The notes under the pieces are model-generated. The model was not told the origin of the DNA. It was given only the letters and a program-made list of their open reading frames with translations, and made no database searches. Source: Rubrivivax sp. (GTDB lineage Bacteria > Pseudomonadota > Gammaproteobacteria > Burkholderiales > Burkholderiaceae_C). From it: a stretch of 41,306 nt of DNA. The stretch is from assembly GCA_016790435.1 (NCBI GenBank), contig JAEUPE010000005.1, forward strand, positions 1 to 41,306. The letters run 5' to 3'. Numbering within the stretch: position 1 is the first letter of the stretch; the number at the start of each line of letters is the position of its first letter. Shown here piece after piece: positions 5,563-28,921 of the stretch. The translations under genes were made by a program, and so were the position numbers.

Positions 5563-5591
5563 ACCCACCCCCTCCCCCAGGAGGACATGCC

Positions 5592-6080
5592 ATGAGAACC
5601 TGGCGCCTCCCCCCCGATGTCGACACCGACCAACTCGCCCCCGGCCACGCCATGAAAGACGGCCGCCTCGAGACGGTGGCAAAGCACTGCCTGGAAAGCC
5701 TGCGCGCCGAGTTCGCGCACAGCGTGCGCCCAGGCGACGTCATCGTCGCCGGCCCCAACTTCGGCATCGGCAGCTCGCGCGAGCAAGCGGCGAGTGTCCT
5801 CGTGCATCTCGGCGTCGCCGCCGTCGTGGCGCCGAGCTACAGCGGCCTCTTCTTCCGCAATGCCTTCAACGTCGGCCTGCTGCTGCTCACCTGCCCGCGC
5901 GCGCTCGAGATCGCCGATGGCGTGGCGCTGCGCTTCGACGCGCGCGAGGGCTATGTCGCGCTCAACGGCGGCGTGCGCCTGCCCACCCAACCCATTCCCG
6001 GCTTCCTGCTCGAGCGCATCGACGCCGGCGGGCTGCTGCCCGAACTGAAGAAGCGTTTCCGACCGGAGGAGAAGACATGA
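5592..6080 (+). CDS. Aconitase-family hydratase, small subunit (LeuD/DmdB type)
   Basis: Swivelling small subunit that completes the active site of the upstream large subunit. The ATG at 5592 follows AGGAGG. The product is 162 residues, normal for the short LeuD2/HacB type. The DTDQLAPG motif sits near residues 11-18 and the active-site GPNFGIGSSREQA near residues 54-66, followed by a YSGLFFRNAFNVGLL segment. The substrate-recognition loop after the DTD motif reads HAMKDG, without the YLxT-like residues usual in isopropylmalate isomerases. The stop codon overlaps the ATG of the amidohydrolase gene (ATGA). Family assignment is firm; the substrate is unknown. Confidence 0.88.
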   Translation: MRTWRLPPDVDTDQLAPGHAMKDGRLETVAKHCLESLRAEFAHSVRPGDVIVAGPNFGIGSSREQAASVLVHLGVAAVVAPSYSGLFFRNAFNVGLLLLTCPRALEIADGVALRFDAREGYVALNGGVRLPTQPIPGFLLERIDAGGLLPELKKRFRPEEKT

Positions 6081-7576: not shown

Positions 7577-7635
7577 GGTCGCTGATGGCGCGGAACGCGC
7601 GAAACGTGCTGGAGGCGCTGAACGCCGTGACGCTC

Positions 7636-8733: not shown

Positions 8734-8861
8734 AGCGGCCTATCCTATGCCTGTGGCGAAAGGGCTTCCGTCGACGCGCCGGGCGGTCGCACGCGAGGGA
8801 CCGCATCGACGCGATCGGCACGAGGCCCTGGACCGTCTCAACGGCTGCGAGAGACCCGGCG

Positions 8862-11254: not shown

Positions 11255-11294
11255 CACCGGTGCCGTCGCTGGACCCGCATGGAGCCGCGAAGCG

Positions 11295-11337
11295 CAGGCA
11301 TCGAACCGTCAGCGAACAGGCATCGAAACGGCAGCGA
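11295..11337. repeat. Two-copy direct repeat, 22-bp period
   Basis: Two 21-base units, 11295-11315 and 11317-11337, both starting CAGGCATCGAA and ending CAGCGA, match at 19 of 21 positions. They lie one base apart, giving a period of about two helical turns, in the 184-base gap before the nitroreductase gene. This could be a paired operator or a chance duplication. Confidence 0.5.
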
Positions 11338-11387
11338 GTCGGCCACCGGGTCGTCGAACCAGCCGTTGAGCCACGTCAACGCCGGCC

Positions 11388-11415
11388 GGCCCGCGCCGCC
11401 TAGGCTGCGCGGGCC
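11388..11415. other. GC-rich hairpin upstream of nitroreductase gene
   Basis: A perfect 9-bp stem GGCCCGCGC/GCGCGGGCC encloses a 10-base loop and ends 23 bases before the ATG at 11439. No T-tract follows. It could be a weak terminator for the upstream operon or a 5' leader structure of the nitroreductase gene. Confidence 0.35.
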
Positions 11416-11438
11416 ACACGCCTTCGCCGGAGCCGCCG

Positions 11439-12131
11439 ATGAACACGCTCACCAAGCTCGCCCTCGGCCTGATGGGGCAGTTGCGCCCGCAGCCCGCGCT
11501 GGACGAAGGCGCACCGACGATCGAGCTGCCCGCACCGCGCACCGAGGGCGGCCAGCCGCTGATGCAGGTGCTGGCGCGGCGCCGCTCGCAGCGCGAGTTC
11601 GCGCCGCAGTCGCTGCCGCGGCCGGTGCTCGCCGACCTGCTGTGGGCCGCCACCGGCGTCAACCGGCCGAAGCTCGGTGGCCGCACCGCACCGAGCGCGA
11701 TGAACGCGCAGGAGGTAAGCGTGTACGTGGCCCTGCCCGAAGGCCTGTACCTCTACGAGCCGGGCGCGCACCTGCTGCGCCAGGTGGCGGCGAGCGACGT
11801 GCGCCGCGTCACCGGCTACCAGGACTTCGTCGACCGCGCGCCGCTGGACCTCATCTACGTGGCCGACCACGCGCGCATGAAGCTCGTTCCGGCCGACCGG
11901 CGCGAGGCCTATGCCTTCGCGGCGGCCGGGGCCATGGCGCAGAACGTGTACCTCTATTGCGCCTCGGCCGGCCTGGCCACCGTCATCCGGGCCTGGTTCG
12001 ACGCGCGCGCGCTCACGCAGGCGATGCAGCTGCCAGCGGACCAGCACCTGCTGCTGGCGCAGACCGTGGGCCGGCCGGGCAAGGCGGCGCGCGCCGTGGC
12101 TGCGGGCAGGGCATCGACAGCACCAGCCTGA
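11439..12131 (+). CDS. Nitroreductase-family protein, SagB-like
   Basis: FMN-dependent oxidoreductase fold of the nitroreductase/SagB dehydrogenase-like group. The product is 230 residues. The FMN-contacting RRRSQREF motif is near residues 47-54, followed by LADLLWAATGVNRP and RTAPSAMNAQEVSVYV, which are typical of single-domain SagB-like proteins. GLYLYEPGAHLL and AAGAMAQNVYLYCASAGL are later family landmarks. The N-terminal 35 residues are a loosely conserved, partly hydrophobic leader. It stands alone, with no peptide precursor, YcaO or cyclodehydratase gene nearby, so a role in making azole peptides is not supported. It is convergent with the lipoprotein gene. Confidence 0.82.
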   Translation: MNTLTKLALGLMGQLRPQPALDEGAPTIELPAPRTEGGQPLMQVLARRRSQREFAPQSLPRPVLADLLWAATGVNRPKLGGRTAPSAMNAQEVSVYVALPEGLYLYEPGAHLLRQVAASDVRRVTGYQDFVDRAPLDLIYVADHARMKLVPADRREAYAFAAAGAMAQNVYLYCASAGLATVIRAWFDARALTQAMQLPADQHLLLAQTVGRPGKAARAVAAGRASTAPA

Positions 12132-12200
12132 CGCCGGGCCGGGTGTCGAAGACGATGGCGACGGTGCGAGGGCTGGAGTGCGTGTCGGCGGGCGCTGCGG

Positions 12201-14777: not shown

Positions 14778-14975
14778 CGAATGCCTCCCTCATTGCCTGA
14801 CCGGCCCTGGGCGCCGGCAGCGGCGGGATTCTTCCATCGGCACGCGACGATCATCGCCCTGGCACCACCCGCGAACCGGGGGCGGACGGCCCTTCAGGCA
14901 AGCGGTTCCGTCGTGCCCTCGCCGTTCGCTGATGCCGCGTGTGGGCAGCGGGCCCCATCCGGCGGGGCGCGAGCT

Positions 14976-15590
14976 TCAGATCACGTAGCGCAGGATCGCA
15001 ACGTAGTGGGTAGCGCTGCCGGCCATCACGAACAGATGCCAGACGCCGTGGAAGTGCCTGACTCGGGCGTCGAGCGCATAGAAGACGATGCCCAGCGTGT
15101 AGAAGAGCCCGCCCGCCACGAGCCAGGCGAGACCGGCCGACCCCAAGGCCCTGTGAAGGGGGACCAGGGCGACCACGACCGCCCAACCCATCACGACGTA
15201 GATCACCACCGACAGGACACGGGCCTTGCCGGCCCAGAACTCCTGCAGGCTGCCGATCACCGCGAGCGCCCAGACCACGCCGAACAGCGACCAACCCCAA
15301 CTGCCGCGCAGCGTGACCAGGCAGAACGGCGTGTAGCTGCCCGCGATGAGCAGATAGATGCTCTGGTGGTCGAGCTTCTGCAGGACGAGCTTGGCGCGCC
15401 CGCGCAGGCTGTGGTACAGGACCGAGAAGGTATAGAGCAGCACCAGCGTCAGGCCGTAGATCGAGACGCTCACCACCTTCCACGGGTCCCCGCCCAGCGC
15501 GGCCAAGGCCACCAGCACCACCGCCCCGACAAGCGCCAGCACGGCCGCCACGAGGTGGGTGATCGCATTCAACTTCTCGCCGTGGTACAT
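14976..15590 (-). CDS. HlyIII/PAQR-family integral membrane protein
   Basis: Seven-helix membrane protein of the haemolysin III/YqfA/PAQR family; the bacterial members are poorly characterised metal-dependent membrane hydrolase-like proteins, and haemolysis should not be assumed. I chose the ATG at 15590 (MYHGEKLNAITHL), which matches the family N-terminus and gives 204 residues. An in-frame GTG at 15602 is possible; the longer upstream frame is Arg-rich and unlikely. Conserved residues are SVLYHS (H60), KLDHQSIYLLIAGSYTP (D74, H75) and the C-terminal HFHGVWHLFV histidines, which form the metal site of this superfamily. It is divergent from the GST gene. Confidence 0.87.
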   Translation of the reverse strand: MYHGEKLNAITHLVAAVLALVGAVVLVALAALGGDPWKVVSVSIYGLTLVLLYTFSVLYHSLRGRAKLVLQKLDHQSIYLLIAGSYTPFCLVTLRGSWGWSLFGVVWALAVIGSLQEFWAGKARVLSVVIYVVMGWAVVVALVPLHRALGSAGLAWLVAGGLFYTLGIVFYALDARVRHFHGVWHLFVMAGSATHYVAILRYVI

Positions 15591-15796
15591 GCCGTTGGCC
15601 ACTCTCTCCTGGCGGCAGCGCGGGCGTGCCCGCATGAGGGCCCGTGTCGTCACCGATGACGGCCTCGGGCCGACACTGTGCGCCCGGAGAATAGGCGCCC
15701 GTGCCGCAGCCGCCGAATGCCCCGCGCCGCGCGCCGGCGTGCGCCCGCGCCCCACAATTCGCGCCCCAAGCCACCACCGAGCCCAGGACCCATCCC

Positions 15797-16480
15797 ATGC
15801 TGAAGTTCTACTACTCCCTCGCCCCCAACCCCATGAAGGTGGCGCTGTTCCTCGAGGAGGCTGGCCTGCCCTACGAGGCCGTGCCAGTGGACACGCGCAA
15901 GGGCGAGCAGCATGCGCCGGCCTTCACCGCACTGAACCCGAACGCCAAGGTGCCGGTGATCGTCGATGGCGCCAACACCGTGTTCGACAGCAGCGCCATC
16001 CTGCTGTACCTGGCCGAGAAGAGCGGCCAGTTCCTGCCCGATGCTGCCGACCGCGGCGCCATGCTCTCGTGGCTGATGTTCACGGCCTCGGGCATCGGCC
16101 CGTTCTCGGGGCAGGCCGTGCACTTCAAGCACTACGCGCCCGAGAAGCTGCCCTACGCCATCAACCGCTACGACTTCGAGGCCTGGCGGCACTGGAAGAT
16201 CCTGGACGCGCACCTCGCCAAGCAGCCGTGGATGGTGAGCAGCCGCTACACGCTGCTCGACATGGCGGTGTGGGGCTGGGCGCGTGCCGTGCCCTTCGCG
16301 CTGGGCACCGAGGCCTGGGAACAGCTGCCGAACGTGAAGCGCCTGTTCGATGCCGTGACCGCCCGCCCCGCCGCGCAGCGCGCCGCGGCGCTGAAGGAGC
16401 GGTACACCTTCAAGACCGAGATGGACGACGAGGCGAAGCGGGCGATGTTCCCGCAGAACGAACGGTTGAAGCCGGCCTGA
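15797..16480 (+). CDS. Glutathione S-transferase family protein
   Basis: Soluble GST of 227 residues. The start is the ATG at 15797 (MLKFYYSLAPNPMKVALFLEE); the upstream in-frame extension is Ala/Arg-rich and without support. The thioredoxin-like domain spans residues 1-80, with the cis-proline AKVPVIVD and the glutathione-contacting DSSAILLYLAEK. The helical domain follows, with LLDMAVWGWARAV as the N-capping region. The pattern resembles bacterial YghU/Ure2p-like enzymes. The substrate is unknown. It is convergent with the small membrane-protein genes. Confidence 0.88.
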   Translation: MLKFYYSLAPNPMKVALFLEEAGLPYEAVPVDTRKGEQHAPAFTALNPNAKVPVIVDGANTVFDSSAILLYLAEKSGQFLPDAADRGAMLSWLMFTASGIGPFSGQAVHFKHYAPEKLPYAINRYDFEAWRHWKILDAHLAKQPWMVSSRYTLLDMAVWGWARAVPFALGTEAWEQLPNVKRLFDAVTARPAAQRAAALKERYTFKTEMDDEAKRAMFPQNERLKPA

Positions 16481-16490
16481 GCGCGCGCAC

Positions 16491-16512
16491 GGCCCGCTGC
16501 GGCGCGCGGGCC
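16491..16512. terminator. Candidate bidirectional hairpin terminator
   Basis: A 7-bp GC stem GGCCCGC/GCGGGCC with an 8-base loop lies in the 48-base gap between the convergent GST and small membrane-protein genes. There is no T-tract on either strand, so efficiency as an intrinsic terminator is doubtful. Confidence 0.3.
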
Positions 16513-16528
16513 GGCGGCATGGCGCGCA

Positions 16529-16780
16529 TCAGTAGGACTGCGGCAGGTCCTCGGCCCTGAGCACGGGCTCGCCCATGCCCGGCTGGGGCGAGGGCACGAG
16601 CACGTACATCGGGGACGGGGCCTCGACGCTCGGCGTCTCGGCGGACGCTGCGTCCGGGTCGGCTTGGCCGCTAGGAAGCAGGAGCCCGCTCAACGCCACC
16701 GTGACGATGAGCAGGGGCACGAGGTTCCACGTCCAGGCGTGGGTCTCTTGCTGCCGGAGGGCCTTGGCGGATTCGTACAT
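16529..16780 (-). CDS. Small single-pass membrane protein, tandem paralogue B
   Basis: An 83-residue protein of unknown function. The ATG at 16780 follows AAGGAG. It reads as a short polar N-terminus, a conserved HAWTWNLVPLL segment that begins one hydrophobic helix (about residues 18-37), then a Pro/Glu-rich tail ending VPSPQPGMGEPVLRAEDLPQSY. The gene immediately upstream encodes a paralogue with the same architecture, the same WTWN-xPL entry to the helix and a nearly identical tail (VPSPQPGLGEPALVPADLPPTY). The two genes are 28 bases apart and probably co-transcribed. The conserved tail suggests a binding or sorting function on one side of the membrane (inference). I do not recognise the family. 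Confidence 0.7.
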   Translation of the reverse strand: MYESAKALRQQETHAWTWNLVPLLIVTVALSGLLLPSGQADPDAASAETPSVEAPSPMYVLVPSPQPGMGEPVLRAEDLPQSY

Positions 16781-16808
16781 GGTGGGCTCCTTGTCGATGG
16801 ATGGTGGT

Positions 16809-17078
16809 TCAGTACGTCGGCGGCAGGTCGGCGGGCACCAGCGCGGGCTCGCCGAGGCCCGGCTGCGGCGAGGGCACCAGCAGCATGGCCAGCGTCGGGG
16901 CCTCGCTGGGCATCGCCTGGGCGGCTGTCGCTTCCGCGACCTCCACCGCATCCCCGGGCAGCGTGCCTTGCGGGAAGAAGACGATGCCCAGCGCCAGCGC
17001 GGCGGCGAACAACGGCAACACGTTCCAGGTCCACGAGGTGTCGTGGGACATCGTCACGGATTCGAGGTGGTTGTTCAT
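16809..17078 (-). CDS. Small single-pass membrane protein, tandem paralogue A
   Basis: An 89-residue protein of unknown function, first of a tandem pair. The ATG at 17078 follows CAGGAG. It has a polar N-terminus, a TSWTWNVLPLFAAALALG segment that leads into a single transmembrane helix (about residues 14-34), and an acidic/Pro-rich tail ending VPSPQPGLGEPALVPADLPPTY. The match to its neighbour is strongest in the WTWN motif and the last 22 residues, so both ends of the pattern are under constraint while the middle drifts. It is divergent from the Crp/Fnr regulator across 195 bases, which may control it. Confidence 0.7.
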   Translation of the reverse strand: MNNHLESVTMSHDTSWTWNVLPLFAAALALGIVFFPQGTLPGDAVEVAEATAAQAMPSEAPTLAMLLVPSPQPGLGEPALVPADLPPTY

Positions 17079-17215
17079 GGGCGGCTCCTGGGTGGCGGGG
17101 TTCGTTGATCGGTGTTCGCATGTTCGGGGCGCCGCGCCGCAACGGCGTGGCGCCGTTCAATAGTGACCGCCGGCCTGGGCGCGGCTAGAGTTGCCGCCGG
17201 CCAAGCCCTGGCCGG

Positions 17216-17255
17216 GCGTGGCGTGGCGTGGCGTGGCGTGGCGTGGCGTGGCGTG
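17216..17255. repeat. Pentanucleotide tandem repeat (GCGTG)8
   Basis: Eight perfect GCGTG units run from 17216 to 17255, then a ninth degenerate unit (GCGGG). The tract ends 18 bases before the ATG of the Crp/Fnr gene. The unit is not a multiple of three, so copy-number change would shift any reading frame initiated upstream (an ATG at 17112 is in frame at the present copy number) and would alter promoter or leader spacing. Confidence 0.9.
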
Positions 17256-17273
17256 GCGGGCAGGATTGGGCAC

Positions 17274-17909
17274 ATGGACACCGGACCGACGACGGAGCAA
17301 TCAGCCGAGTTCCTGCACGAGCTGGCGCGGCTGGGCGAAACGCGCACCTGGGAACCCGGCGCGACGGTGGTCACGCAGGGCGACCCCGCCGACTGCATGT
17401 ACGTCATCCACGAAGGCGAGCTGCGCGCTGTCATCGCCGGCGAAGGCGGCCGTGTCGTCGAGCTGAACACGCTGCGCCCGGGCGAGGTCTTCGGCGAGCT
17501 CATGCTCAGCGGCGAGCTGCGCTCGGCCACGGTGCAGGTCACCACCCGTGCCCGCCTCACGCGGGTGACGCGGGCCGAGGTGGAGCGGCTGCTGGCGGCA
17601 CGGCCCGACCTCGCCTTCCAGCTGGTGCAGCGACTGGTGCAGCGCGTGCGCGCGCTGACGCGCACGGTGGGCCACCTCGCCTCGGCCGACGTCTACGGCC
17701 GTCTCGTCGGCCTGTTCGACGCGCTGGCGGTGGAGCAAGGCGGCCAGCGCTTCGTGCCGGGGCCGCTGAGCCAGCAGCGCATCGCCGAACGCGTGGGCGC
17801 CTCCAAGGCGATGGTGAACCGGCTGCTGCAGGACCTCGAGCGCGGCGGCTACATCGAGGCCTCGCGCGAGCGCATCGTGCTGCTCAGGAAGCTGCCGCCG
17901 AAGTGGTAG
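17274..17909 (+). CDS. Crp/Fnr-family transcriptional regulator
   Basis: DNA-binding regulator of 211 residues. The start is the ATG at 17274, with an AGGA eight bases upstream. The N-terminal cyclic-nucleotide-binding fold covers about residues 10-120. It has the phosphate-binding-cassette pattern FGELMLSGELRSATV, with E75, R83 and S84 in the positions that hold cAMP in CRP, so a cyclic nucleotide ligand is plausible. No FNR-type N-terminal cysteine cluster is present. The C-terminal winged helix contains LSQQRIAERVGASKAMVNRLLQDLERGGYI as its helix-turn-helix. It is divergent from the two small membrane-protein genes and has a pentanucleotide repeat in its leader. Targets are unknown. Confidence 0.9.
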   Translation: MDTGPTTEQSAEFLHELARLGETRTWEPGATVVTQGDPADCMYVIHEGELRAVIAGEGGRVVELNTLRPGEVFGELMLSGELRSATVQVTTRARLTRVTRAEVERLLAARPDLAFQLVQRLVQRVRALTRTVGHLASADVYGRLVGLFDALAVEQGGQRFVPGPLSQQRIAERVGASKAMVNRLLQDLERGGYIEASRERIVLLRKLPPKW

Positions 17910-18022: not shown

Positions 18023-19825
18023 ATGGCGCCGATGCACGACGACGCTGCTGCCGCCGCCGCACGGTCCTCGTGGGCCTCCTGGGCCTCCTGGGCCTTGTGG
18101 GCCTCGAAAGCCTCGCGGTGCTTGTTCGCCCGGCGGCGCGACGCGCCGGCGCCGGCCACTCGACGATGCGCACCGGGCTTCCGCGTCGGGCGCGCGTGGA
18201 CCGCCATGCTGTCGATACTGTTGTGCGCCGCGGCCGGGGTCGACGCGGCCGCCGCCGACGCCCCTGCAGGTGGCGGCTTCAGGCTGCCGGCACTCCCCCT
18301 CGCGCCTCCGGGGTCCCCGACCAGCAGCGCCGCGCCGAACCCAGCGCCCATCACCCTGCGCGCCGTGCGCTTCGAAGGTCACACGCAGTTCACGCTGGCC
18401 GAGCTCGAGGCGCTGGCTGCGCCTTTCCTGCAGCGGCCGCTGCGGCCGCTGGACCTGGAGGAGCTGCGCCAGCGCGTGACGCGCGCCTACGTCGAGCGCG
18501 GCCACGTCAACTCGGGCGCCGTCATCGCCGAGGGCGCGCTGCAGGGCGACACGCTCACGCTGCGCATCGTCGAGGGCCGCATCACGCAGCTTCGCCAGCG
18601 CGGCCTGCAGGGCCTGACCGAGCGTTACCTCGCCTCGCGGCTGCTGCGCGAGGGCGAGGTGCTCGACGTCAACCGGCTGCAGGACCGCTACCGCCTGCAA
18701 CTCGCCGACCCGTTGTTCGCGCGCCTCAACGCGCAGTTGCTGCCCGCCGGCGAGCCCGGCGCGGCGGTGCTCGATGTCGAGGTGACGCGCGCCCCGCCGT
18801 GGCAGGCCACGGTCTTCGCCAACAACCATGTCGCGCCGGCGGTCGGCTCGACGCAGCTCGGCATGGAAGGGGTGTGGCGCGACCTCGCCGGCTGGGGCGA
18901 CGCACTGGCCATCACCCTGGCCGGTGGCGAGGCGAGCCGGCAGATCGACGCCACCTGGCTGCTGCCGCTTGGGGGCAGCCGCACGACGCTGGCGCTGCGC
19001 GCGGCCGACGGCGAGTCGTCGGTGATCGAGGAGCCGGTGGCGGCGCTCGACATCGGAAGCCGCGTCACCACGCGCGAGGCGACGCTTACGCAGCCGCTCA
19101 TCGACGAGTCGCGCCAGCGCTGGGCCCTCGGGCTGACGTGGGCGCAGCGGCGCAACCGCACTTCGCTTTCGGGCGTGCCCTTCGCGTTCGTGCCGGGCGA
19201 GCCGGAGGGCGGCATCCGCATCGAGTCGTGGCGCGTTTTCCAGGAGCTCACGGTGCGCCGCGAGCGCGACGTGTGGGCCCTGCGCGCCAGCGTGCTCGCC
19301 GGCCGCAACAACCTGGCCGCCGAGCCGCTGCTGCCGCAGCAGCCGCCGCGCCACTACCGGCTCGCGCAGCTGCAGGGGCAGGGCTCGATCGCCACCGGTT
19401 CGGAGGGCGAGCCCGGCGGCCCGCTCATCGTGCGCGCGCTGCTGCAGCGCAGCCCCGACCGCCTCGTGCCGCTGGAGCAGATCGCCGTCGGCGGGCGGCA
19501 TACGGTGCGCGGCTACCGCGAGAACCAGCTCGTGCGCGACAACGGCTGGGCGGTCGGCCTGGAGTGGCATTGGCCGCTCTGGCGCGACGCCGTGCGCCGC
19601 GCCGGCGTGACGCTGGCCCCCACGCTCGATGCCGGCGCGGCGTGGAACCGCGACGAGCCGAAGAGCCGCCTCGCCTCCGCCGGCCTCGGCCTGCTGTGGA
19701 CGGTGGCCGAGGTCGAAGGCGAGCTGTTCGTGGCGCGCCGCCTCGAGCGGCGCGACAACCCCACCCATGGAGACCTGCAAGACCGTGGCATCCACCTCTC
19801 GTTGCGCTGGCGGCCGCAGCCTTAG
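18023..19825 (+). CDS. TpsB-family outer-membrane translocator (ShlB/FhaC/HecB type)
   Basis: Omp85-superfamily pore of a two-partner secretion system, exporting the TpsA protein encoded two genes downstream. As called from 18023 the product is 600 residues. POTRA domains lie at about residues 107-260 (ITLRAVRFEGHTQFT; LRIVEGRITQL), and the beta-barrel occupies the rest. The Omp85 signature VRGYRE, which forms the tip of the L6 loop, is at residues 495-500. The N-terminus is uncertain. The ATG at 18023 yields an odd W-A-S repeat and an Arg-rich stretch before the hydrophobic LSILLCAAAGVDAAAA export signal, while the ATG at 18206 starts directly at that signal but without positive charges. Its 3' end overlaps the CHAT gene by 59 bases (or 41 from the alternative GTG), so it is the first gene of an operon. 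Confidence 0.88.
   Translation: MAPMHDDAAAAAARSSWASWASWALWASKASRCLFARRRDAPAPATRRCAPGFRVGRAWTAMLSILLCAAAGVDAAAADAPAGGGFRLPALPLAPPGSPTSSAAPNPAPITLRAVRFEGHTQFTLAELEALAAPFLQRPLRPLDLEELRQRVTRAYVERGHVNSGAVIAEGALQGDTLTLRIVEGRITQLRQRGLQGLTERYLASRLLREGEVLDVNRLQDRYRLQLADPLFARLNAQLLPAGEPGAAVLDVEVTRAPPWQATVFANNHVAPAVGSTQLGMEGVWRDLAGWGDALAITLAGGEASRQIDATWLLPLGGSRTTLALRAADGESSVIEEPVAALDIGSRVTTREATLTQPLIDESRQRWALGLTWAQRRNRTSLSGVPFAFVPGEPEGGIRIESWRVFQELTVRRERDVWALRASVLAGRNNLAAEPLLPQQPPRHYRLAQLQGQGSIATGSEGEPGGPLIVRALLQRSPDRLVPLEQIAVGGRHTVRGYRENQLVRDNGWAVGLEWHWPLWRDAVRRAGVTLAPTLDAGAAWNRDEPKSRLASAGLGLLWTVAEVEGELFVARRLERRDNPTHGDLQDRGIHLSLRWRPQP
18072..18107. repeat. Four-copy 9-bp repeat in the TpsB N-terminal region
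   Basis: Four imperfect GGGCCTCCT-type units run head to tail. In the translocator frame they encode a Trp-Ala-Ser-like triplet four times, just upstream of the probable export signal. The repeat sits where the start codon is in doubt, so it may be leader rather than coding sequence. Confidence 0.6.
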
Positions 19826-22139
19826 CGCCGCGGCAGCCGCCTTGCTGCTGGCCGCTGCCGTGGGCAGCGCCGCAGCCGCGGAATGCAGCGCCGGTGGCGG
19901 GCCGCTGCGCCTGGCCGTTGTCGGGCTGCAAGCCGATTTCGAGCGCGCCACCGAGCCACTGGCGCGCGCCCGTGCCGCCGCGGCGCTGGGCGCGGCCTGG
20001 CTCAAGCTCGACCGCCAGGACGAGGCCGCGCGCGCGCTGCAGCAGGCGCTGGCCGGGCCGCTGCCAGCGCGGGAACGCGCGGCGGTGCAGCTCGACCTCG
20101 GCAACCTGGCCCTGACGCAGCAACGGTTTGCAGATGCCGACGCCGCTTGGAAGGCCGCCGCGACGCTGGTGCCCGCTGACGCCGAGCTCGCGCTGGCCGC
20201 CGAGCTGAACCGGCTGCGCCTGCCGGAGGCGACGGGCGCGCCAGGCATCGCTGGCACTTCAGGCGCTTCCGATGCATCCGGCGCTTCCGCCAGCGCCAGC
20301 GCGCCGCGCCTCCTGCCGCGGTTGCGCACCGCGCTCGCGCGCAGTGCCGGGCTCGGCGATGCGGCGCTGCGCGCCCGCTTCGCCTTGAATGTCGCGGCGC
20401 AGGCCGCGGCCCTCGGCCCGGAGGGCGGCGAGCTGGCCTGGCGCGCCCACGAACAGGGCCGCACGCAGGCACTCGCCGCCGGCGAGGCACGCCTGGCGGC
20501 CGAGGCCTATGAGGGGCTGGCGCTGCTGTACGAGGCGCAACAGCGCCCCGAAGAAGCGCTTCGCCTCGTCGAGGAAGGCATCGCGCAAGCGCGCCGCGTG
20601 CCTGCGCGCGAACGGCTGATGCAGCTCGAGGGCCTGGCCGGACGCCTGGCGTGGCGCATGGGCGATGCCGAGCGTGCGCTCGCCGCCTACCGACGCGCCG
20701 TGGAGCATGTGGAGGCGGTGCGCAGCGACATCCCGGTGCGCTACCAGGACGGGCGCTCGTCGTTCCGCGACACACTGGAGCCTCTGTACCTGGGCCTCAC
20801 CGACCAGCTGCTGCGCCGCGCCGACGCCGGGCCGCCAGCCGAGCGCAGCGCGCTGCTGCGGCAGGCGCGCGACGCGGTCGAGTTGATTAAGCAGACCGAG
20901 CTCGAGGACTGGCTGCGCAGCCGCTGCGGCGTCGAAGGCAACCGCCTGGCGTGGAAGCCGCCGGCTGGCAGCGCGATGCTGCACGCCATCATCCTGCCCG
21001 ACCGCCTGGCGCTGCTCGTCGAGACGGCGGGCGGCATCGAACACCGCAGCGCCGCCATCGCCGGCGACGAGCTGCGCCGCGAGGTGCTCGACTTCGTCGC
21101 CGCGCTGCGCGAGCGGCAGCCGCTGCAGGCGCGCGCCGAGGGGCTGCACCGCGTGCTCATCGCGCCCATCGAGCCGCTGCTCGCCGCCGAGCGCATCGAC
21201 ACGCTGGTGGTCGTGCCCGACGGCGTGTTGCGGCTGCTGCCGTTCGGCGCCCTGCACGACGGCCAGCGCTGGCTGCTTCAGCGTTATGCCGTGGCGACGG
21301 TGCCGGGCCTGAGCCTCACGCCGGCGCCGCGCAGCGGGCGCACGCCGTCGACCGGAGGGATGACCGCACTGCTCACCGGCATGGCCGAGCCCGGCCCGGT
21401 GCTCGACAAGCTGCCGCGCGACCTGGTGGACAGCGTGCTCGATGCCGCGGACCCGACACGCCAGGCCGGCGCAGCGGCGGGGCGGGCGGGCGAAGGCGCG
21501 GCAATGCCGGCCGGCCCCGCGAGCGCAGCGTCGGCGGCCACCGCGGCCGAACGGTCGGCGGCACGCACCGGCGCCCTGCGCGAGGCGCTGGCGCTGCCCG
21601 GCGTGCGCCAGGAGATCGAGGCCCTGGCGCGCGTGCTGCCGGGCACCGTGCTGCTCGACCGCGGCTTCACGCTGCAGGCGCTGAAGGCCCGCATGCGCGC
21701 CACCGCGCCGCCGGTGGTGCACATCGCCTCGCACGGCGTCTTCGGCGCCAGCGCCGAGACCACCTTCATCATGACCTACGACGAGCTGCTGACGCTGGAC
21801 GGCCTGCAGTCGCTGCTGCGCGACGAGCGCCCGCGCGACTCGCCGATCGAGCTGCTCACGCTGTCGGCCTGCCAGACGGCGGAGGGGGACGACCGGGCGC
21901 CGCTGGGCATGAGCGGCACGGCGCTGAAGGCACGCGCGCGCACCGTGCTCGGCACGCTGTGGCCGGTGGCCGACGAGGCGGCGCAGCAGGTGATGGAAGG
22001 TTTCTACCGCCATCTGGCCGAAGGCCGGCTGTCGCGCGCCGCGGCGTTGCGCGACGCGCAGCTCGCGCTGCTCGCCAGGCCCGGGCGCAGCCACCCGTTC
22101 TTCTGGGCGCCGTTTGCATTGATCGGAGACTGGCAATGA
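19767..22139 (+). CDS. Exported TPR-CHAT domain protein (caspase-like), between TpsB and TpsA
   Basis: A 790-residue protein with a hydrophobic leader (LSAAAAALLLAAAVGSAAAA, cleavage near residue 38), TPR-like alpha-helical repeats at about residues 45-330, and a C-terminal CHAT domain at about 395-790. CHAT is a clan CD peptidase-like fold related to caspases and separase. The dyad is intact: H656 in HIASHGVF and C702 in LSACQTAEG. VVVPDGVLRLLPFGAL and GTLWPVADEAA are further CHAT landmarks. An Ala/Gly-rich insert lies at about residues 563-605 inside the domain. The start is the ATG at 19767 or a GTG at 19785, both inside the tpsB 3' end; the stop overlaps the tpsA ATG. The role inferred from context is periplasmic or surface processing of TpsA. 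Confidence 0.88.
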   Translation: METCKTVASTSRCAGGRSLSAAAAALLLAAAVGSAAAAECSAGGGPLRLAVVGLQADFERATEPLARARAAAALGAAWLKLDRQDEAARALQQALAGPLPARERAAVQLDLGNLALTQQRFADADAAWKAAATLVPADAELALAAELNRLRLPEATGAPGIAGTSGASDASGASASASAPRLLPRLRTALARSAGLGDAALRARFALNVAAQAAALGPEGGELAWRAHEQGRTQALAAGEARLAAEAYEGLALLYEAQQRPEEALRLVEEGIAQARRVPARERLMQLEGLAGRLAWRMGDAERALAAYRRAVEHVEAVRSDIPVRYQDGRSSFRDTLEPLYLGLTDQLLRRADAGPPAERSALLRQARDAVELIKQTELEDWLRSRCGVEGNRLAWKPPAGSAMLHAIILPDRLALLVETAGGIEHRSAAIAGDELRREVLDFVAALRERQPLQARAEGLHRVLIAPIEPLLAAERIDTLVVVPDGVLRLLPFGALHDGQRWLLQRYAVATVPGLSLTPAPRSGRTPSTGGMTALLTGMAEPGPVLDKLPRDLVDSVLDAADPTRQAGAAAGRAGEGAAMPAGPASAASAATAAERSAARTGALREALALPGVRQEIEALARVLPGTVLLDRGFTLQALKARMRATAPPVVHIASHGVFGASAETTFIMTYDELLTLDGLQSLLRDERPRDSPIELLTLSACQTAEGDDRAPLGMSGTALKARARTVLGTLWPVADEAAQQVMEGFYRHLAEGRLSRAAALRDAQLALLARPGRSHPFFWAPFALIGDWQ

Positions 22140-25100
22140 GCTCGAAGTGGTTCTCCTCGCGGCGGGCTCCGATCGCAGCCGCGGCGATCACGCTGCTCGG
22201 CGTGGCCGAAGCGAATGCGGCCGCGGTGACCGACGGTTCGGTCGGCGCCGTGCAGACGCTTTCGGGCGCGATGACGGTGCCGCAGACGCTGGGCACGCTG
22301 CGCGGCGGCAACCTCTTCCACAGCTTCGCGCGCTTCGGCATCGCGGCGGGCGAGTCGGCCACCTTCACCACCGTCGACCCCGGCATCCGCCACGTCATCA
22401 CGCGTGTCACCGGCGGCGAGGCGAGCGTGCTGCAGGGGCCACTGGCACTGCAGGCCGCCGGCGGCGCGCGGCCCGACTTCTGGCTGCTGAACCCGGCCGG
22501 CGTGCTGGTGGGGGCGGGTGCGTCGTTCGACCTGCCGGCCGGGCTGCACCTCGCGACCGCGCCGCAGCTGCGCTTTGCCGATGGCGAGGTGTGGTCGACC
22601 GGCAGCGCCGCGCCGAGCACGCTGAGCGTGGCCGCGCCGGAGAGCTTCGGCTTCCTCGCCACGCCGGCAGCGGCGCTGCGCTGGCAGGACGCCAACGTCC
22701 AGCTGGCGCCGGGCTCCACGCTGTCACTGGCCGGTGGTGAGCTGGCCATCGACCGCGCTGTGCTGGTGGCGCCGGCCGGCACGCTGCGCCTGCAGGCGCC
22801 CGGCGCCGTGCGCCTGGGCGCCGAGGCCGTGCTGGGGGCCACGGCACCGCAGGCGGGCGACAGCGGCCACATCGACGTGCAGGCCGCCTCGCTGCGCCTG
22901 GAGGCCGACGCCGTCGGGGCCGCCTTCATGCTGGCGCAGACCAACCTCGGCGGCACCGGCGGCGGCATTGCGCTGCAGCTGGGCGGCGCGCTCGAACTGG
23001 GCGAAGGCGCGGCGATCCAGGCGGTCAACGTCGGCAGCGGCAGCGGGCTCGCGGTCAACGCCGCCAGCCTGCGCTCCGACGGCGGCCAGCTCCTCACCCA
23101 GGGGCTCGGCAGCGGCCCGGGCCCCGCGCTGAGCGTGCAGCTGACCGGCGCGCTGGAGCTGATCGGCGGCAACATCACCAGCGTGGCCAGCGGCGCCGGC
23201 AGCGCCGGCGCGGTGCAGGTGCGCGCGAACTCGATCCGCCTCGACGGCCAGGGCTTCCTCGGCTTCGGCGCCATCACGAGCCAGAGCAGCGCAAACGGCG
23301 GCGCGCCCGGCGCGATCTCGGTCACCAGCGCCGGCGCGCTCGACCTCGTGGGCGCCGCGGGCATCGGCTCCAACAACCGCAGTGGCGACGCCGCCGGCGC
23401 CGTGCAGGTACAGGCTCGCAGCGCCTCCTTCGAAGGTGAAGGAACGAACCCGTCCTCGGTGTATTCGCTGACCACGGCCGGCGGCAGCGCGGCGGCGGTG
23501 AGCGTGAGCGTGGCAGAGGGGCTCACGCTGCGGCCGGGCGGGCAGATCCAGTCGGGCACGCTGGGCATCGGCGGGGCCGGCAACGTCACGGTGCAGGCCG
23601 ATCAGCTGGTCCTGCAGGGCCAGCCGGGCGGCAGCATCGTCGCATCGGCCGTCACGGGCGTGTCCAGCGTGCCGCTGGGCGGGGCCCAATCGGGCGCCGG
23701 GGGCACGGTCGAGGTCAGGAGCCGCAGCATCACGATGACCGGCGACGCCGTCATCTCGACGAGCACGCTCGACAGCGCCACGGGTGCGGGCGACATCCGC
23801 ATCACCGCCAGCGAGATGACGATCGACGGCCGGCTCCGCGGCGGTGGGGTCCGCGCCAGCGTGCTGGGCGGCACGGGCGACGCCGGCCGCGTGCAGGTGG
23901 ACGTGCGCGACGGCCTCACGCTGCAGGACGGCGGCGTCATCGAGGCCAGCAACGCCGGCTCGGGCGCCGCAGGCAGCGTCGTCGTCAATGCGGGCAGCGT
24001 GCGCGTGGACGGCAGCAACGCGGGCAACACGCTCACCGGCATCAGCGCCGACGGCATCGGCGCCGGCGCCGGGGCGCCGGTGCTGGTGCAGGCCGGCCGC
24101 GTGGAGGTCGTGCGCGGCGGCGTCATCTCCTCGAGCGCCTTCGGCGTGCGCGATGGCGGCAGCGTCACGGTGCGCGGCATGGCGGTGTGGGTGGACGGCG
24201 GCAGCATCCTCGCCGAGGCCTACGACGCCGGCGCCGCCGGCAGCGTGACGGTCGAGGCCACGCAGGTCGACGTGCTCGGTGCCGGCTCGATCTCCACGAG
24301 CACCATCGGCAGCGGCCGCGGCGGCAGCATCGCCATCACCGCCGAGCGCGTGCGCTTCGAGCGCTCGGGCGGCGCCTTTTCGGTGACCGCCGGCGCCGGT
24401 GACGCCGGCCGCGTGACCCTGGACATCGCCGACACGCTGACCCTGGCCGAGGGCGGCTTCATCGTCACCAACACTGGCGACAGTGGCGCGGCCGGCCGCA
24501 TCGACATTCGCGCCGGCCGCGTCGAGATCGGCGGCGTCGACCCGGCCAGCGGCCAGCGCAGCCGCATCACCAGCCGCGCGTTGACCACCTCCGGCGGCCA
24601 GTCCGGCAGCATCACGCTCGACGTGGCCGGGGCGCTCGACCTGCGGCCCGGCGCCCTGCTGAGCATTGCCAACGACGCCAGCGTGGCTGACCCCGCCGCG
24701 CTCGCGCCGACCGCCCTCACGCTGCGCGCCGGCAGCCTGAGCCTGGAGGGCGCCGACATCACCGCGGCGGCCAGCGGCAACGCGCGCGCCGGTGCGATCA
24801 GCATCGACACGGCGGGCCCGCTGCGGGCCCTCGGCAGCCGCATCAGCACCACCGCCGTCGACGGCGATGGCGGGCCGATCACCATCGCCGCGGCGGGCGG
24901 CGTGCTGCTGAAGGACAGTGCCATCACGACCTCCGTCGCTGGCACCACCAACGGCAATGGCGGCGACATCACCCTCACCGGCGACTGGCTGGCCATGGCC
25001 TCGGGCTTCGTGCAGGCCAACACCACCGCGCCGCGTGCGCGCGGCGGCAACGTCACCGTCAACGTCGGCCTGCTCGTGCCCGACGGCAGCAACGTCTTCG

Positions 25101-25384
25101 TCGGCGGCAGCCGCATCGCCGAGGTGCGGCTGGGCGCGCCGGGCTACAACGTCATCCAGGCGGCGGCACCCGAGGGGCTGGCCGGGCAGCTCGACCTCAC
25201 GCGGCCCGACCTGAACCTGTCGTCGAGCCTGGTGGGGCTGCTGGTCCCGGTGATCGACTTCGGCCTCATCGGCCGCGACATCTGCGCCGCGGGCACCGAC
25301 AGCACCTTCACGGTGCTGGGTGGCGGCGCGCTGCCGGCGCCTGCGTCGGCGCCCCTGCGCATTCGACCGACACCCACGCCATGA
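22136..25384 (+). CDS. TpsA-type filamentous haemagglutinin N-terminal domain protein
   Basis: Exoprotein of 1082 residues secreted by the TpsB partner. The ATG at 22136 overlaps the CHAT stop (ATGA), with GGAG upstream. A signal peptide spans about residues 1-28. The TPS domain covers about residues 30-290, with NLFHSFARF at residue 59 and the NPAGVLVG variant of the NPNGI motif at 119. The rest is a beta-helix of repeats of the form G-xGG-S(I/V)-x(I/V)-xA-xx(V/L), followed by an I-x-(S/A)-ST turn. Near the C-terminus, RDICAAGTDSTFTVLGGGALP (Cys1050) resembles the end of cyanobacterial haemagglutinin-domain proteins. It has no long FHA-like toxin tip or CDI-type VENN motif. Likely a surface adhesin or biofilm protein. 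Confidence 0.9.
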   Translation: MSSKWFSSRRAPIAAAAITLLGVAEANAAAVTDGSVGAVQTLSGAMTVPQTLGTLRGGNLFHSFARFGIAAGESATFTTVDPGIRHVITRVTGGEASVLQGPLALQAAGGARPDFWLLNPAGVLVGAGASFDLPAGLHLATAPQLRFADGEVWSTGSAAPSTLSVAAPESFGFLATPAAALRWQDANVQLAPGSTLSLAGGELAIDRAVLVAPAGTLRLQAPGAVRLGAEAVLGATAPQAGDSGHIDVQAASLRLEADAVGAAFMLAQTNLGGTGGGIALQLGGALELGEGAAIQAVNVGSGSGLAVNAASLRSDGGQLLTQGLGSGPGPALSVQLTGALELIGGNITSVASGAGSAGAVQVRANSIRLDGQGFLGFGAITSQSSANGGAPGAISVTSAGALDLVGAAGIGSNNRSGDAAGAVQVQARSASFEGEGTNPSSVYSLTTAGGSAAAVSVSVAEGLTLRPGGQIQSGTLGIGGAGNVTVQADQLVLQGQPGGSIVASAVTGVSSVPLGGAQSGAGGTVEVRSRSITMTGDAVISTSTLDSATGAGDIRITASEMTIDGRLRGGGVRASVLGGTGDAGRVQVDVRDGLTLQDGGVIEASNAGSGAAGSVVVNAGSVRVDGSNAGNTLTGISADGIGAGAGAPVLVQAGRVEVVRGGVISSSAFGVRDGGSVTVRGMAVWVDGGSILAEAYDAGAAGSVTVEATQVDVLGAGSISTSTIGSGRGGSIAITAERVRFERSGGAFSVTAGAGDAGRVTLDIADTLTLAEGGFIVTNTGDSGAAGRIDIRAGRVEIGGVDPASGQRSRITSRALTTSGGQSGSITLDVAGALDLRPGALLSIANDASVADPAALAPTALTLRAGSLSLEGADITAAASGNARAGAISIDTAGPLRALGSRISTTAVDGDGGPITIAAAGGVLLKDSAITTSVAGTTNGNGGDITLTGDWLAMASGFVQANTTAPRARGGNVTVNVGLLVPDGSNVFVGGSRIAEVRLGAPGYNVIQAAAPEGLAGQLDLTRPDLNLSSSLVGLLVPVIDFGLIGRDICAAGTDSTFTVLGGGALPAPASAPLRIRPTPTP

Positions 25385-25644: not shown

Positions 25645-26058
25645 CTACTTCGTGTAGCTGAAGTCCAGCACCTTGTCACCGGTGAAGGTGATCACCAGCA
25701 TCTTGTTGATCGGATCCTTGCGATACAGGCCGAAACTCTGCGAGCGCTTGAGTGCATTGGCATAGGCATCGGAGTAGTGGTAGGTCCACGAGTCGTTGCC
25801 GGCCGTGACGGTGGTCTGCCACGGCTCGCCGATGTTCTTCTTGATGTCGGCCTTGGTCGTGACGCCTTTCTTGATCTGCGCGACATAGCTGTCGTCGAAT
25901 GGGCGGCCGGTATCGCTGGCCGCGGGTCCGTCGAGTGCGGCGCAGCCGCTGAGGCAGCCCAGGCTGGCCAACGACAGCGACAGTGCAAGTGCGACGAACA
26001 GTCGGCGCGAATGGGACGAAAGCGACGGGTGGCTGGAAGTGGCGGAGATGGGACGCAT
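25645..26058 (-). CDS. Small BamE/SmpA-like lipoprotein
   Basis: A 137-residue exported lipoprotein. The N-terminus has a hydrophobic signal ending in a lipobox LSGC near residue 39. The mature domain starts with DDSYVAQIKKGVTTKADIKKNIGEP, the helix-helix pattern of the SmpA/OmlA (BamE) fold in which a GxTxxxVxxxxGxP-like motif precedes a beta-sheet. The strand WTYHYSD and the C-terminal LVITFTGDKVLDFSYTK complete it. It is too divergent, and in the wrong context, to be called the housekeeping BamE. It is divergent from the winged-helix kinase gene. The role is unknown; outer-membrane anchored on the periplasmic side. Confidence 0.78.
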   Translation of the reverse strand: MRPISATSSHPSLSSHSRRLFVALALSLSLASLGCLSGCAALDGPAASDTGRPFDDSYVAQIKKGVTTKADIKKNIGEPWQTTVTAGNDSWTYHYSDAYANALKRSQSFGLYRKDPINKMLVITFTGDKVLDFSYTK

Positions 26059-26203: not shown

Positions 26204-28921
26204 ATGTTGCGCCAGAGCAAAGCCCCCCAGCCGTTGCCGCCCGCGCCAGGTACCCGCTACCGCTTTCGCTTCGGGCAGGACGCCGAGTTCGACGCCGCGC
26301 GGCTGGAGCTGCGCGTGCAGGGCCGCACCGTGCCGCTGCAGGCCAAGCCGTTGGAGCTGCTGGCGCTGCTGTTGGCCACGCCCGGCGAGGTGCTGAGCAA
26401 ACAGGCCATCCTCGATACGCTGTGGGCTGAACGCGAGGTGGTCGAGGCGGTGCTGGCCAACGCCGCCTCCAAGCTGCGCGCGGCGCTCGGGGCAGCCAAT
26501 GCCGGGTGCATCGTCACGGTGGCGCGCCAGGGCTACCGGCTCGAAGGCCCGGTCGAGCGCATTGCGCACGGGCGCCGACTTGTGAGCGCACTGGCGCTCG
26601 CGCGGGGCGACGCCGTGCCCGGGCGCGCCGGGCACCGCCTCCTGCGCCAGCTCGGCGCCTCGCCCGGACAGGAAACTTGGCTGGCCGAGCAGCCCAAGAC
26701 CGGCGATACGCGGGTCTTCAAGTTCGCGCTCGACGGCGAGCGCCTCGCCGCGCTGCAGCGCGAGGCGACGATCTCGCGCCTGCTGGAGCGCTCGCTCGGC
26801 CGGCGCGCCGACCTGGTGCGCGTGCTGGACATGAACTTCGAGGAACCGCCGTTCTGGATCGAAACCGAGTATGCCGGCGACGACCTCGAGGCGTGGTGCA
26901 ACGCGGCCGCGGGCGCGGCCAGCAGCGTTGCCGGCACGGCGGATTCCCCTCACGCCCCGAATCCCGGGAGACTGGCAACCCCCACGGTGCCGGGCCGCAC
27001 GCGGCTGCAAAGCCTGCCGCTCGCGGAGCGCATCGCTCTCGTTCGGCAGGTGGCCGATGCGCTGGCGGCCGCGCACCGCGCGCAGGTGCTGCACAAGGAC
27101 CTCAAACCGGCCAACGTGCTTGTGCAGCCGCTGTCGGCCGCAGCGGGCGAACCCGCACGCTGGCAGGTCCGCCTGGGTGATTTCGGCAGCGGGCGGCTGC
27201 TCGACCCCGCCGAACTCGAACGGCTACGCGTCACGCGGCTCGGGCTCACGCTGGACAGCCTCGATTCGAGCCCGGGCACGCCGCTGTACATCGCGCCGGA
27301 GCTGCTCGGCGGCGGCGCGGCCACGCCGGCCAGCGACGTGTTCGCGCTCGGCGTCGTGCTCTACCAGATGCTCGCCGGCGAGTTGCACCGGCCGCTCGCG
27401 CCCGGCTGGGAGCGCGACATTGCCGACGAACTGCTGCGCGAGGACATCGCGCTTGCCACCGACATCGACCCCGCTCGCCGGCTCGGCTCGGCCGCCGAGC
27501 TGGCCGAGCGCCTGTCGCGGCTGCCCGAGCGGCGCGCGCTGCGCGAGGCCGAGCGTGTGCGCGCCGAGCTCGACGCGGCGCAGCGGGCGGCGGCCGAGCT
27601 GGCGCGTCAGAACGCCGTGGCCGAGACCTTGAACCGGCTGCTGCGCGAAGACCTGATCGGCGCGGCCAATCCCGGCCTGCAAGGCCGCGCCGACATCACG
27701 GTGGCCGATGCGCTGACCGGCGCGGCCGCGCGCATCGACACCAAGTACGCCGCGCTCGAGCCGGCGCTGCGCGCGCACCTGCACACGGCGCTCCAGCATG
27801 CGCTGGCGGACCTGTCGCGCTCGAAGGACGCCGTCGAGGCCGGGCAGCGCGCCGTGCGCGCCTGGGGCGAGGCCCTCGCAGCGGCACGCGCGGAGCAGTC
27901 GGCCGCGCCGGTAGCGGCCGATGCGTTGTCCGCTGTGCAGCAGGCGCTCGAGTCGCTGCAGAAGTCGCGCCTGCGACTGACGATCGACCTCGTGCAGCTC
28001 TCGCAGCTCGCCGAAGCGGCCGCCGTGGTGCAGGCCATCGACGCCGACGCGCCGCCGCCGGCCGAGCAGGAGCCGATATTCCGCGCGCGGCTGCTGTTCG
28101 CCAAGTCGTGGCTGACCGCGGGCGATCTGTCGCTGCAGGAATCGCTCGCGCAGCTGGAGGAGGCGGCCACACTGGTCTCGCCCTTCAGCGAGGAACAGGC
28201 GCCCAGCCGCAGCGTCATCCTGTTCGGCCTGGCCGACAACCTCGCGCTGGTGGGGCGGCTGGCCGAGGCCGAAGCGCTGTACCGGCAGCTGCTCGGCGAA
28301 CACGTGCAGCGCCACGGCGAGCAGCACGTCCGCAGCCGCTATACGCAGGTGGGGCTGGGCAATGTGCTGGCGCGCCTGGGCCGATACGACGAAGCGCGCG
28401 CCGAGATCGAGCCAGCCGCCGCGGGTCTGGCCGCGGCGCTAGGCGCGCGCCACCGCCAGACGCTGACCGCGCGCGACATGCTGGCCGACCTGCGCTTCCG
28501 CCAGCGAGACTTTGCCGGCGCCGCACGTGAGTGGGCCGAGGTCCAGGCCGGTTATGCCGAGCTGATGGGCGAAGGCAGCAGCTATACGCTCACCGTGCAG
28601 ACGCAGCATGCGGCTGCGCTGCTGCGTGCCGGCCAGGCTGCGGCGGCCGAGCCACTGCTGCGCCGCGCACTCACGCTGGCGCGCGCCTTTCTCGCGCACG
28701 AAGCGCCGCAGGTGCAGCAGATCCGCTGCGTGCTGGCCGAGTGCCTGCTCGAGCTGGACGGCGCTGCCGAGGCGCAGTGCCTAGCCGAGGGCCTGCAGCC
28801 CGCGGCACTGGCCCTGGCCGAAGCCGATGCCGACTGGCCCGCACGGCTGGCGTCACTGCACCGGCGCACGGCAGCCGGGAGCGCGGCCGCTGCTCAGGCC
28901 GGCGCGGAACGCACCCCGTAG
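26204..28921 (+). CDS. Winged-helix DNA-binding / Ser-Thr protein kinase / TPR fusion
   Basis: A 905-residue three-part protein. Residues about 18-118 form an OmpR/CadC-type winged helix (LQAKPLELLALLLATPGEVLSKQAILDTLW; the wing ends VARQGYRLEG). Residues about 140-435 form a protein kinase with lysine K173 (RVFKFAL), the catalytic loop H297-K298-D299 (HKDLKPANVLV), D326 in DFGSG, and GTPLYIAPEL. The glycine loop is degenerate (GASPGQETWLA) and HRD has become HKD, so activity is likely but not certain. Residues about 440-905 are coiled-coil and TPR-like helices (for example RLAEAEALYRQLLGEHVQRHG). No transmembrane helix is visible, so it is presumably cytoplasmic. Coupling DNA binding to a kinase in one chain suggests a one-component phospho-regulator (inference). 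Confidence 0.85.
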   Translation: MLRQSKAPQPLPPAPGTRYRFRFGQDAEFDAARLELRVQGRTVPLQAKPLELLALLLATPGEVLSKQAILDTLWAEREVVEAVLANAASKLRAALGAANAGCIVTVARQGYRLEGPVERIAHGRRLVSALALARGDAVPGRAGHRLLRQLGASPGQETWLAEQPKTGDTRVFKFALDGERLAALQREATISRLLERSLGRRADLVRVLDMNFEEPPFWIETEYAGDDLEAWCNAAAGAASSVAGTADSPHAPNPGRLATPTVPGRTRLQSLPLAERIALVRQVADALAAAHRAQVLHKDLKPANVLVQPLSAAAGEPARWQVRLGDFGSGRLLDPAELERLRVTRLGLTLDSLDSSPGTPLYIAPELLGGGAATPASDVFALGVVLYQMLAGELHRPLAPGWERDIADELLREDIALATDIDPARRLGSAAELAERLSRLPERRALREAERVRAELDAAQRAAAELARQNAVAETLNRLLREDLIGAANPGLQGRADITVADALTGAAARIDTKYAALEPALRAHLHTALQHALADLSRSKDAVEAGQRAVRAWGEALAAARAEQSAAPVAADALSAVQQALESLQKSRLRLTIDLVQLSQLAEAAAVVQAIDADAPPPAEQEPIFRARLLFAKSWLTAGDLSLQESLAQLEEAATLVSPFSEEQAPSRSVILFGLADNLALVGRLAEAEALYRQLLGEHVQRHGEQHVRSRYTQVGLGNVLARLGRYDEARAEIEPAAAGLAAALGARHRQTLTARDMLADLRFRQRDFAGAAREWAEVQAGYAELMGEGSSYTLTVQTQHAAALLRAGQAAAAEPLLRRALTLARAFLAHEAPQVQQIRCVLAECLLELDGAAEAQCLAEGLQPAALALAEADADWPARLASLHRRTAAGSAAAAQAGAERTP

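Follow-up and report, generated by a model that had tools for sequence, protein, structure and literature searches.

In Pseudomonas aeruginosa, the periplasmic cysteine protease LapG cuts the two-partner-secreted adhesin CdrA at its C-terminal end and so frees it from the cell surface. LapG is transglutaminase-like, is encoded together with lapD apart from cdrAB, and is ruled by cyclic di-GMP. Proteolytic processing during secretion also occurs for the TpsA protein FhaB of Bordetella, whose proteases SphB1 and DegP are of other families than the one discussed here and are encoded outside the two-partner secretion (TPS) operon; a 2017 review, in the part consulted, states that putative TpsA maturation-protease genes appear not to be part of TPS operons (PMC5422565). 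In HMW1 and HxuA, a C-terminal segment with a two-Cys disulfide loop is expected, according to the excerpts consulted, to remain periplasmic as an anchor. Here we analyzed a stretch of 41,306 nucleotides from Rubrivivax sp. (contig JAEUPE010000005.1, positions 1 to 41,306), called the window below, in which a gene for a CHAT protein of predicted peptidase clan CD lies among the TPS genes themselves. Pfam gives CHAT and TPR families only, so this protein is not a LapG, but it may work alike. It also differs from the Craspase TPR-CHAT protein Csx29, which in the excerpts consulted has an RNA-guided Cas7-11 partner, in having an export-type leader and a gene beside those for TpsB and TpsA, and from separase, the eukaryotic cohesin protease. 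The association of this CHAT protein with one class of TpsA C-terminal tails is strong. If the CHAT protein indeed processes that tail, the TPS-CHAT module would be an exception to protease genes lying outside TPS operons.

The tpsB-CHAT-tpsA operon of the window

Three genes lie head to tail on the plus strand, with the CHAT gene between tpsB and tpsA:

18023..19825, plus strand: TpsB outer-membrane translocator, 600 residues (POTRA_2 at residues 111-185, ShlB at residues 246-557)
19767..22139, plus strand: TPR-CHAT protein with export-type leader, 790 residues (alternative start GTG 19785)
20925..20927, plus strand: codon of Cys387, an invariant non-catalytic Cys between the TPR and CHAT parts (77/77 relatives)
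21732..21734, plus strand: codon of His656 of the CHAT dyad (77/77 relatives)
21870..21872, plus strand: codon of Cys702 of the CHAT dyad (77/77 relatives)
22136..25384, plus strand: TpsA exoprotein, 1082 residues (TPS domain at residues 31-220)
25085..25366, plus strand: conserved TpsA C-terminal region, NVIQAAAP...Cys...SS...GxG, then mostly Gly/Ala, Leu and Pro (alignments A3 and A4, genome search)
25283..25285, plus strand: codon of Cys1050, the only Cys of the window TpsA (Cys in 39/39 alignment rows)

The identities given to the three proteins in the initial annotation were borne out by Pfam, which found POTRA_2 (E 1e-13) and ShlB (E 3.5e-18), both above cut-off, in TpsB, CHAT (E 8.8e-54) plus TPR families and nothing else in the CHAT protein, and the TPS secretion domain PF05860 (E 8e-22) in TpsA, whose signal peptide was judged by eye. 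Judged from their sequences, TpsB and TpsA conform to the gene-level definition of two-partner secretion (type Vb). The CHAT gene and tpsA overlap by 4 bases (ATGA at 22136), as annotated, and the overlap of 59 bases annotated between tpsB and the CHAT gene holds only if the latter starts at ATG 19767; from GTG 19785 it is 41 bases. The start six codons later (MASTS) is common to relatives, being GTG here and ATG in loci L039, L040, L042 and L043, and L042 has no start codon at the site equivalent to 19767. Based on the overlaps, all three genes may be translated together. The first part of tpsB (18065-18120) contains repeated GTGGGCCTCC-like units that code for SWASWASWALWASKAS. As a leader this is odd, and the true TpsB start may lie downstream.

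The annotated His-Cys dyad (H656 and C702) is right in the 790-residue numbering and is invariant in all 77 aligned relatives. Because the dyad is invariant, catalysis probably matters. Profile, dyad and a caspase/separase-like predicted fold place the protein among the CHAT peptidases of clan CD, and the predicted model aligns with the solved structures of Craspase TPR-CHAT, separase and gingipain. Solved relatives found by sequence with the full protein, among the 60 of 128 matches listed, all cover the TPR part, and the CHAT part had none at E 0.1.

The leader is signal-peptide-like, as annotated, with AAAALLLAAAV as h-region and, by eye, AxA before residue 39, and a cytoplasmic location looks unlikely. 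A lipoprotein signal was rejected, as no lipobox was seen by eye in the window protein (Glu precedes Cys40). Cys40 was also rejected as a general disulfide partner of Cys387: its column holds Cys in 9 of 77 relatives, and 28 of the 77 have a Cys within the stretch aligned to residues 33-60. A home-made rule, under which a start codon may stand anywhere in the upstream portion of a frame, found a signal-like leader in 55 of 84 TPS-linked CHAT frames, cut frames included; of 20 misses inspected by eye, 19 look like leaders and L113 does not. The claim that CHAT proteins are otherwise cytoplasmic was overstated, since the same crude rule found a signal-like leader in 9 of 20 other CHAT frames (one of these 20, L052, has a TpsB frame nearby).

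Association of the CHAT protein with a TpsA tail

The TpsB-CHAT-TpsA arrangement recurs in relatives and is therefore not due to chance. Among 60 relatives searched, seven genomes of the same genus (G012, G013, G029, G005, G017, G009 and G018) have a CHAT protein with 49-81% best-segment identity to that of the window. Each of these adjoins TpsB and, except in G005, where the contig is cut, also TpsA. In the more distant G048, of another family, TpsA, TpsB and CHAT lie within about 11 kb. A contig scan gave 526 CHAT relatives, of which the best 80 were kept, some from one genome; keeping the most window-like relatives favours TPS neighbours. Their titles include Burkholderiales, Undibacterium, Aquabacterium, Methylococcaceae, Accumulibacter, Chromatium, Achromatium and Desulfamplus. 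TpsA and/or TpsB lie within 8 kb on the same strand in 76 of these 80 loci (both in 55, TpsB only in 12, TpsA only in 9, neither in 4). Of the four with neither, L098 and L100 are on contigs shorter than 4 kb, 151 bases follow the CHAT gene in L095, and the flanks available for L101 span 5.5 kb upstream and 2.8 kb downstream. Gene orders vary (BCA 37, CAB 9, ABC 4, and others, for TpsA, TpsB and CHAT), and the CHAT frame opens before the TpsB stop in 35 of 57 TpsB-CHAT pairs. In the 56 loci with all three genes, the pairwise distances of CHAT correlate with those of TpsB (Spearman 0.63) and with those of the TPS domain (Spearman 0.414; 0/500 permutations as high). The synteny search proposed with the initial annotation thus found TPS-CHAT linkage conserved in proteobacteria and cyanobacteria, which excludes that it is confined to this genome. 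Two TpsAs follow a single CHAT in L077 and L099, and L143 (Caenimonas, 5467-17582) has a short CHAT-type frame, a TpsA, and then another CHAT with a TpsA and a TpsB.

In 39 aligned TpsA ends, NVIQAAAP..G..G is followed by Cys, Ser and GxG, all conserved in 39/39, and then by mostly Gly/Ala, Leu and Pro. Within the genus, 58 of 81 genomes have a TPS-domain match. We joined 112 fetched places and the second TpsA of the source genome (113 loci; G019, below cut-off, excluded) with seven known operons (window, G012, G013, G029, G017, G009 and G018). The C-terminal region is present on 10 TpsAs, and CHAT is in the operon of all 10. None of the other 110 loci has the region, and a CHAT is present in a single one of them (L181), on the opposite strand about 7 kb away; the TPS profile recognised 97 of the 113 loci, and a stop codon was seen in 59, three of them with the region. 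The source genome itself (5.39 Mb, incomplete) has seven CHAT matches and two TPS-domain matches; its second TpsA, on contig C209, lacks such a tail, and the 16 kb retrieved for this locus contain no CHAT.

The association is reciprocal in 300 genomes of the order. The CHAT profile gave nine loci with at least 220 bits, a line drawn after inspection of the list (the next score is 112 bits), and each of the nine shares its contig with the C-terminal region, at a distance of at most about 5.5 kb. The C-terminal-region profile gave 11 places in 10 genomes, nine of them with CHAT; scoring was limited to 3 (CHAT) and 16 (C-terminal region) candidates per genome. By comparison, a TPS-domain match is present in 91 of 200 genomes of the order. 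The profiles were built from the loci themselves, and because A1 and A4 include the window and A1 also G048, the rows of these two are not independent. One CHAT match (G337:C115:3298-4926) has two in-frame TGA codons and is possibly a decayed copy.

The annotation had also cited cyanobacterial precedent for these domains occurring together, and this is real. CHAT matched 97 plasmid records, most of the named ones cyanobacterial, and among the eight inspected TpsA and TpsB adjoin CHAT in Pseudanabaena ABRG5-3, Planktothrix and Leptolyngbya, and frames for both are also present in Paraburkholderia L064; no TpsA or TpsB was found near CHAT in Nostoc ATCC 53789, Pseudanabaena PCC 7367 or Azospirillum. 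On a plasmid of Acaryochloris marina MBIC10699, TpsA, tail region and TPR-CHAT form a single protein of 1757 residues (L059 5152-10422), with the TPS domain at 25-213, the tail motif at 835-897 (E 1.5e-17), a TPR-like part, and CHAT at 1450-1755. Its only three Cys are the tail Cys, the Cys387 equivalent and the catalytic Cys. Downstream of the gene lie two genes annotated as toxin-activating acyltransferases and one for a calcium-binding protein. With the fusion as query, 42 of the 50 rows listed (100 records) annotate haemagglutinin/S-layer and CHAT/TPR in one place, in a search that favours records with both parts. Trichormus, Halotia, Anabaena cylindrica and Nostoc provide further TPS-CHAT examples, and CHASE2 and DUF928 genes accompany two of these four. 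Synteny, the reciprocal link to one TpsA tail class and this natural fusion uphold the view that the CHAT protein is dedicated to a secretion pathway.

A candidate role in tail processing and its alternatives

The reading we somewhat favour is that the CHAT protein is a clan-CD protease of the periplasm, dedicated to its own TpsA and processing the C-terminal tail of that protein, much as LapG does with CdrA. Gene linkage, tail correlation, natural fusion, predicted fold, invariant dyad and export-type leader are what it is based on. TpsB would form the outer-membrane pore through which TpsA, as a beta-helical surface exoprotein, would be exported N-terminus first. The CHAT protein would be a cysteine protease exported by Sec that stays in the periplasm. 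Once the TpsA shaft is outside, the last 30-60 residues, with the invariant Cys, Ser and GxG, would be unfolded near the periplasmic mouth of TpsB and serve as a retention tail. The TPR part would be a docking surface, and CHAT would recognise the tail and cut at or near it, so that TpsA is released or matured. We infer that cleavage would release rather than anchor TpsA; the sequence does not tell the two apart. This would point to a candidate substrate of exported CHAT proteins in nature and to a defined region in which it may be cleaved, and could explain the shedding or keeping of large surface proteins in many environmental and filamentous bacteria.

The tail has some likeness to the HMW1/HxuA anchor, as a Cys-bearing C-terminal segment that may remain periplasmic, but the window TpsA has a single Cys in all, against the two of that anchor. 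Among 58 such TpsAs, counting that of the window, the mature protein contains one Cys in 28, located 26-39 residues before the end, two in 20 (13 with the second in the last five residues) and more than two in 10. Unlike this single-Cys class, the seven cyanobacterial TpsAs checked each have a Cys pair near the C-terminus, to which L062 adds two Cys near the N-terminus, and the tail profile matches five of the seven below 1e-3. In a prediction of the C-terminal 330 residues, a confident beta-helix extends to about residue 270 (TpsA 753 to about 1022), and the predicted local distance difference test score is below 50 from about residue 1028. Since confidence is low past the beta-helix, the conserved Cys/GxG part is probably an unfolded tail. 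A fold search with this model was uninformative (best E 0.45), and no solved relatives of TpsA were found by sequence at 0.01.

The pairing of a clan-CD enzyme with a short, conserved C-terminal signal that contains an invariant Cys also recalls sorting systems. PorU is a clan-CD enzyme that anchors proteins in type IX secretion and is a relative of gingipain, which the CHAT fold matches. CHAT might thus act like a sortase, cutting the tail and linking TpsA to a surface component or keeping it attached. This seems unlikely to us: no acceptor is apparent in the loci, although none was searched for, and the neighbour clusters that can be named are sensor and signalling proteins, CHASE2 included, and DUF928. 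It is improbable as well that CHAT is a quality-control protease, which would degrade or unblock TpsA stalled in the periplasm but take no part in normal maturation. The binding of other proteins by TPR domains would suit such a role. FhaB is, in the excerpts consulted, a substrate of the periplasmic protease DegP (PMC8263021). However, neither a tie to one class of TpsA tails nor a fusion to TpsA would be expected of a general protease. Caspase-like domains do act as releasing peptidases and toxins in polymorphic toxins, according to the part of the source consulted (PMC3482391). Nevertheless, an exported toxin or cell-death effector that merely shares its operon with an adhesin is very unlikely here: the window CHAT itself lacks a TPS domain and carries a Sec-type leader, the protein (P0002) has no PADLOC match, and the tail correlation would be left unexplained; immunity genes were not searched for.

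Several observations weigh against processing of the tail by CHAT. G352 has the TpsA region, on an 11.8-kb contig with TpsA and TpsB, but does not figure among the genomes with a CHAT match. In G180 the region is on a 6.4-kb contig, and CHAT is represented only by a fragment, an end, on another contig of 3.2 kb. The unannotated Paraburkholderia locus L064 has CHAT, TpsB and TpsA frames in a row and no such tail. TpsB-CHAT loci L128, L129, L137 and L145, with 10 kb of flank, have no recognised TpsA; possibly these have another kind of secreted partner. CHATs with a leader also exist without TPS partners, and the correlation of TPS-domain and CHAT distances is weak for distant pairs (0.117). The low-confidence tail may reflect merely a shallow alignment. 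The residue between the two invariant Gly is variable, being Arg in 27 of 39 rows and Gly in the window. Because it is not fixed, a simple Arg-specific cut is not universal, and GRG was rejected as a universal Arg cleavage site (another residue in 12/39 rows, window included). Finally, tail processing has been pieced together from sequence, models and analogy.

The initial annotation thus stands in its dedication of CHAT to secretion and in the leader, and is overstated in its cytoplasmic generalisation and unsupported in the contact trigger it had suggested. A contact-triggered surface protease is not supported: no pointer to contact sensing turned up, although no dedicated test was made. As for a Craspase-type linkage, the CHAT loci hold TPS genes and the window CHAT has no PADLOC match, with no search aimed at Cas7-11 itself. 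In the open literature, with most subscription papers outside its scope, no paper was found that pairs "CHAT domain" with "two-partner secretion" or "filamentous hemagglutinin", and neither CHASE2, CHAT and hemagglutinin together nor the wider pairing of CHAT and TPS turned up among the matches listed.

Neighbouring genes and possible control

Within about 4 kb of CHAT, CHASE2 genes are present in 12 of the best 80 loci, versus 1 of the 113 genus TpsA loci. Seven of the 12 were tested with Pfam and all were confirmed, the proteins being cyclases in L076, L085, L096, L116 and L125 and GGDEF-EAL in L139; L132 is the seventh. L110 and L129 were dropped, as Pfam showed other sensor kinases, and so was L141, where the gene is 9 kb off. 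The order-level loci L262, L263, L264 and L267 also match the CHASE2 profile, and in G180 a CHASE2-profile gene lies alongside the CHAT end on the 3.2-kb contig. CHASE2 genes also adjoin CHATs without TPS frames nearby (L054 and L057), which suggests a wider CHASE2-CHAT pairing beyond TPS loci. In the window, a Crp-type regulator precedes tpsB, and further genes follow tpsA:

17112-17909, plus strand: Crp-type regulator with cyclic-nucleotide-binding domain, ending 114 bp before tpsB
25645-26058, minus strand: small lipoprotein-like open reading frame between TpsA and the kinase gene (LSGC lipobox by eye)
26204-28921, plus strand: protein with winged-helix, Ser/Thr kinase and TPR domains, encoded downstream of TpsA (Pfam)

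CHASE2 and Crp-type neighbours may, judged from these gene positions, have a role in control. They also fit a signalling role, possibly non-proteolytic, in which CHAT, bound to the tail, would signal export to a membrane sensor such as CHASE2, or would process a sensor of this kind. We give this only a slight chance, as the invariant dyad points to catalysis and 68 of the 80 loci have no CHASE2 gene within about 4 kb (some contigs are short). With tail processing by CHAT as the basis, a broader picture can be drawn tentatively, although we doubt it in full: a "three-partner" type Vb system in proteobacteria and cyanobacteria, in which a TPS-encoded clan-CD protease would read the Cys/GxG tail and release or install the adhesin on command. 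CHASE2 sensors and nucleotide second messengers would control part of the family, and the whole would be a Lap-like switch built from unrelated parts.

A conserved Crp regulator was rejected, as among L038-L145 it was matched only in L045, where CHAT and a CHASE2-cyclase flank a similar gene, and weakly in L138. A conserved kinase partner was likewise rejected: P0004 had no match of at least 60 bits in 27 loci (L001-L007 and L038-L057). Kinases are also annotated near the TPS-CHAT genes of Halotia (L269) and Leptolyngbya (L062). One neighbour cluster of six loci (for example, L067 3295-6492) has no Pfam match and may be a spurious frame. DUF928 occurs in cyanobacterial loci and in a proteobacterial cluster of five (L085, L096, L103, L111 and L113, with Pfam run on L113 only).

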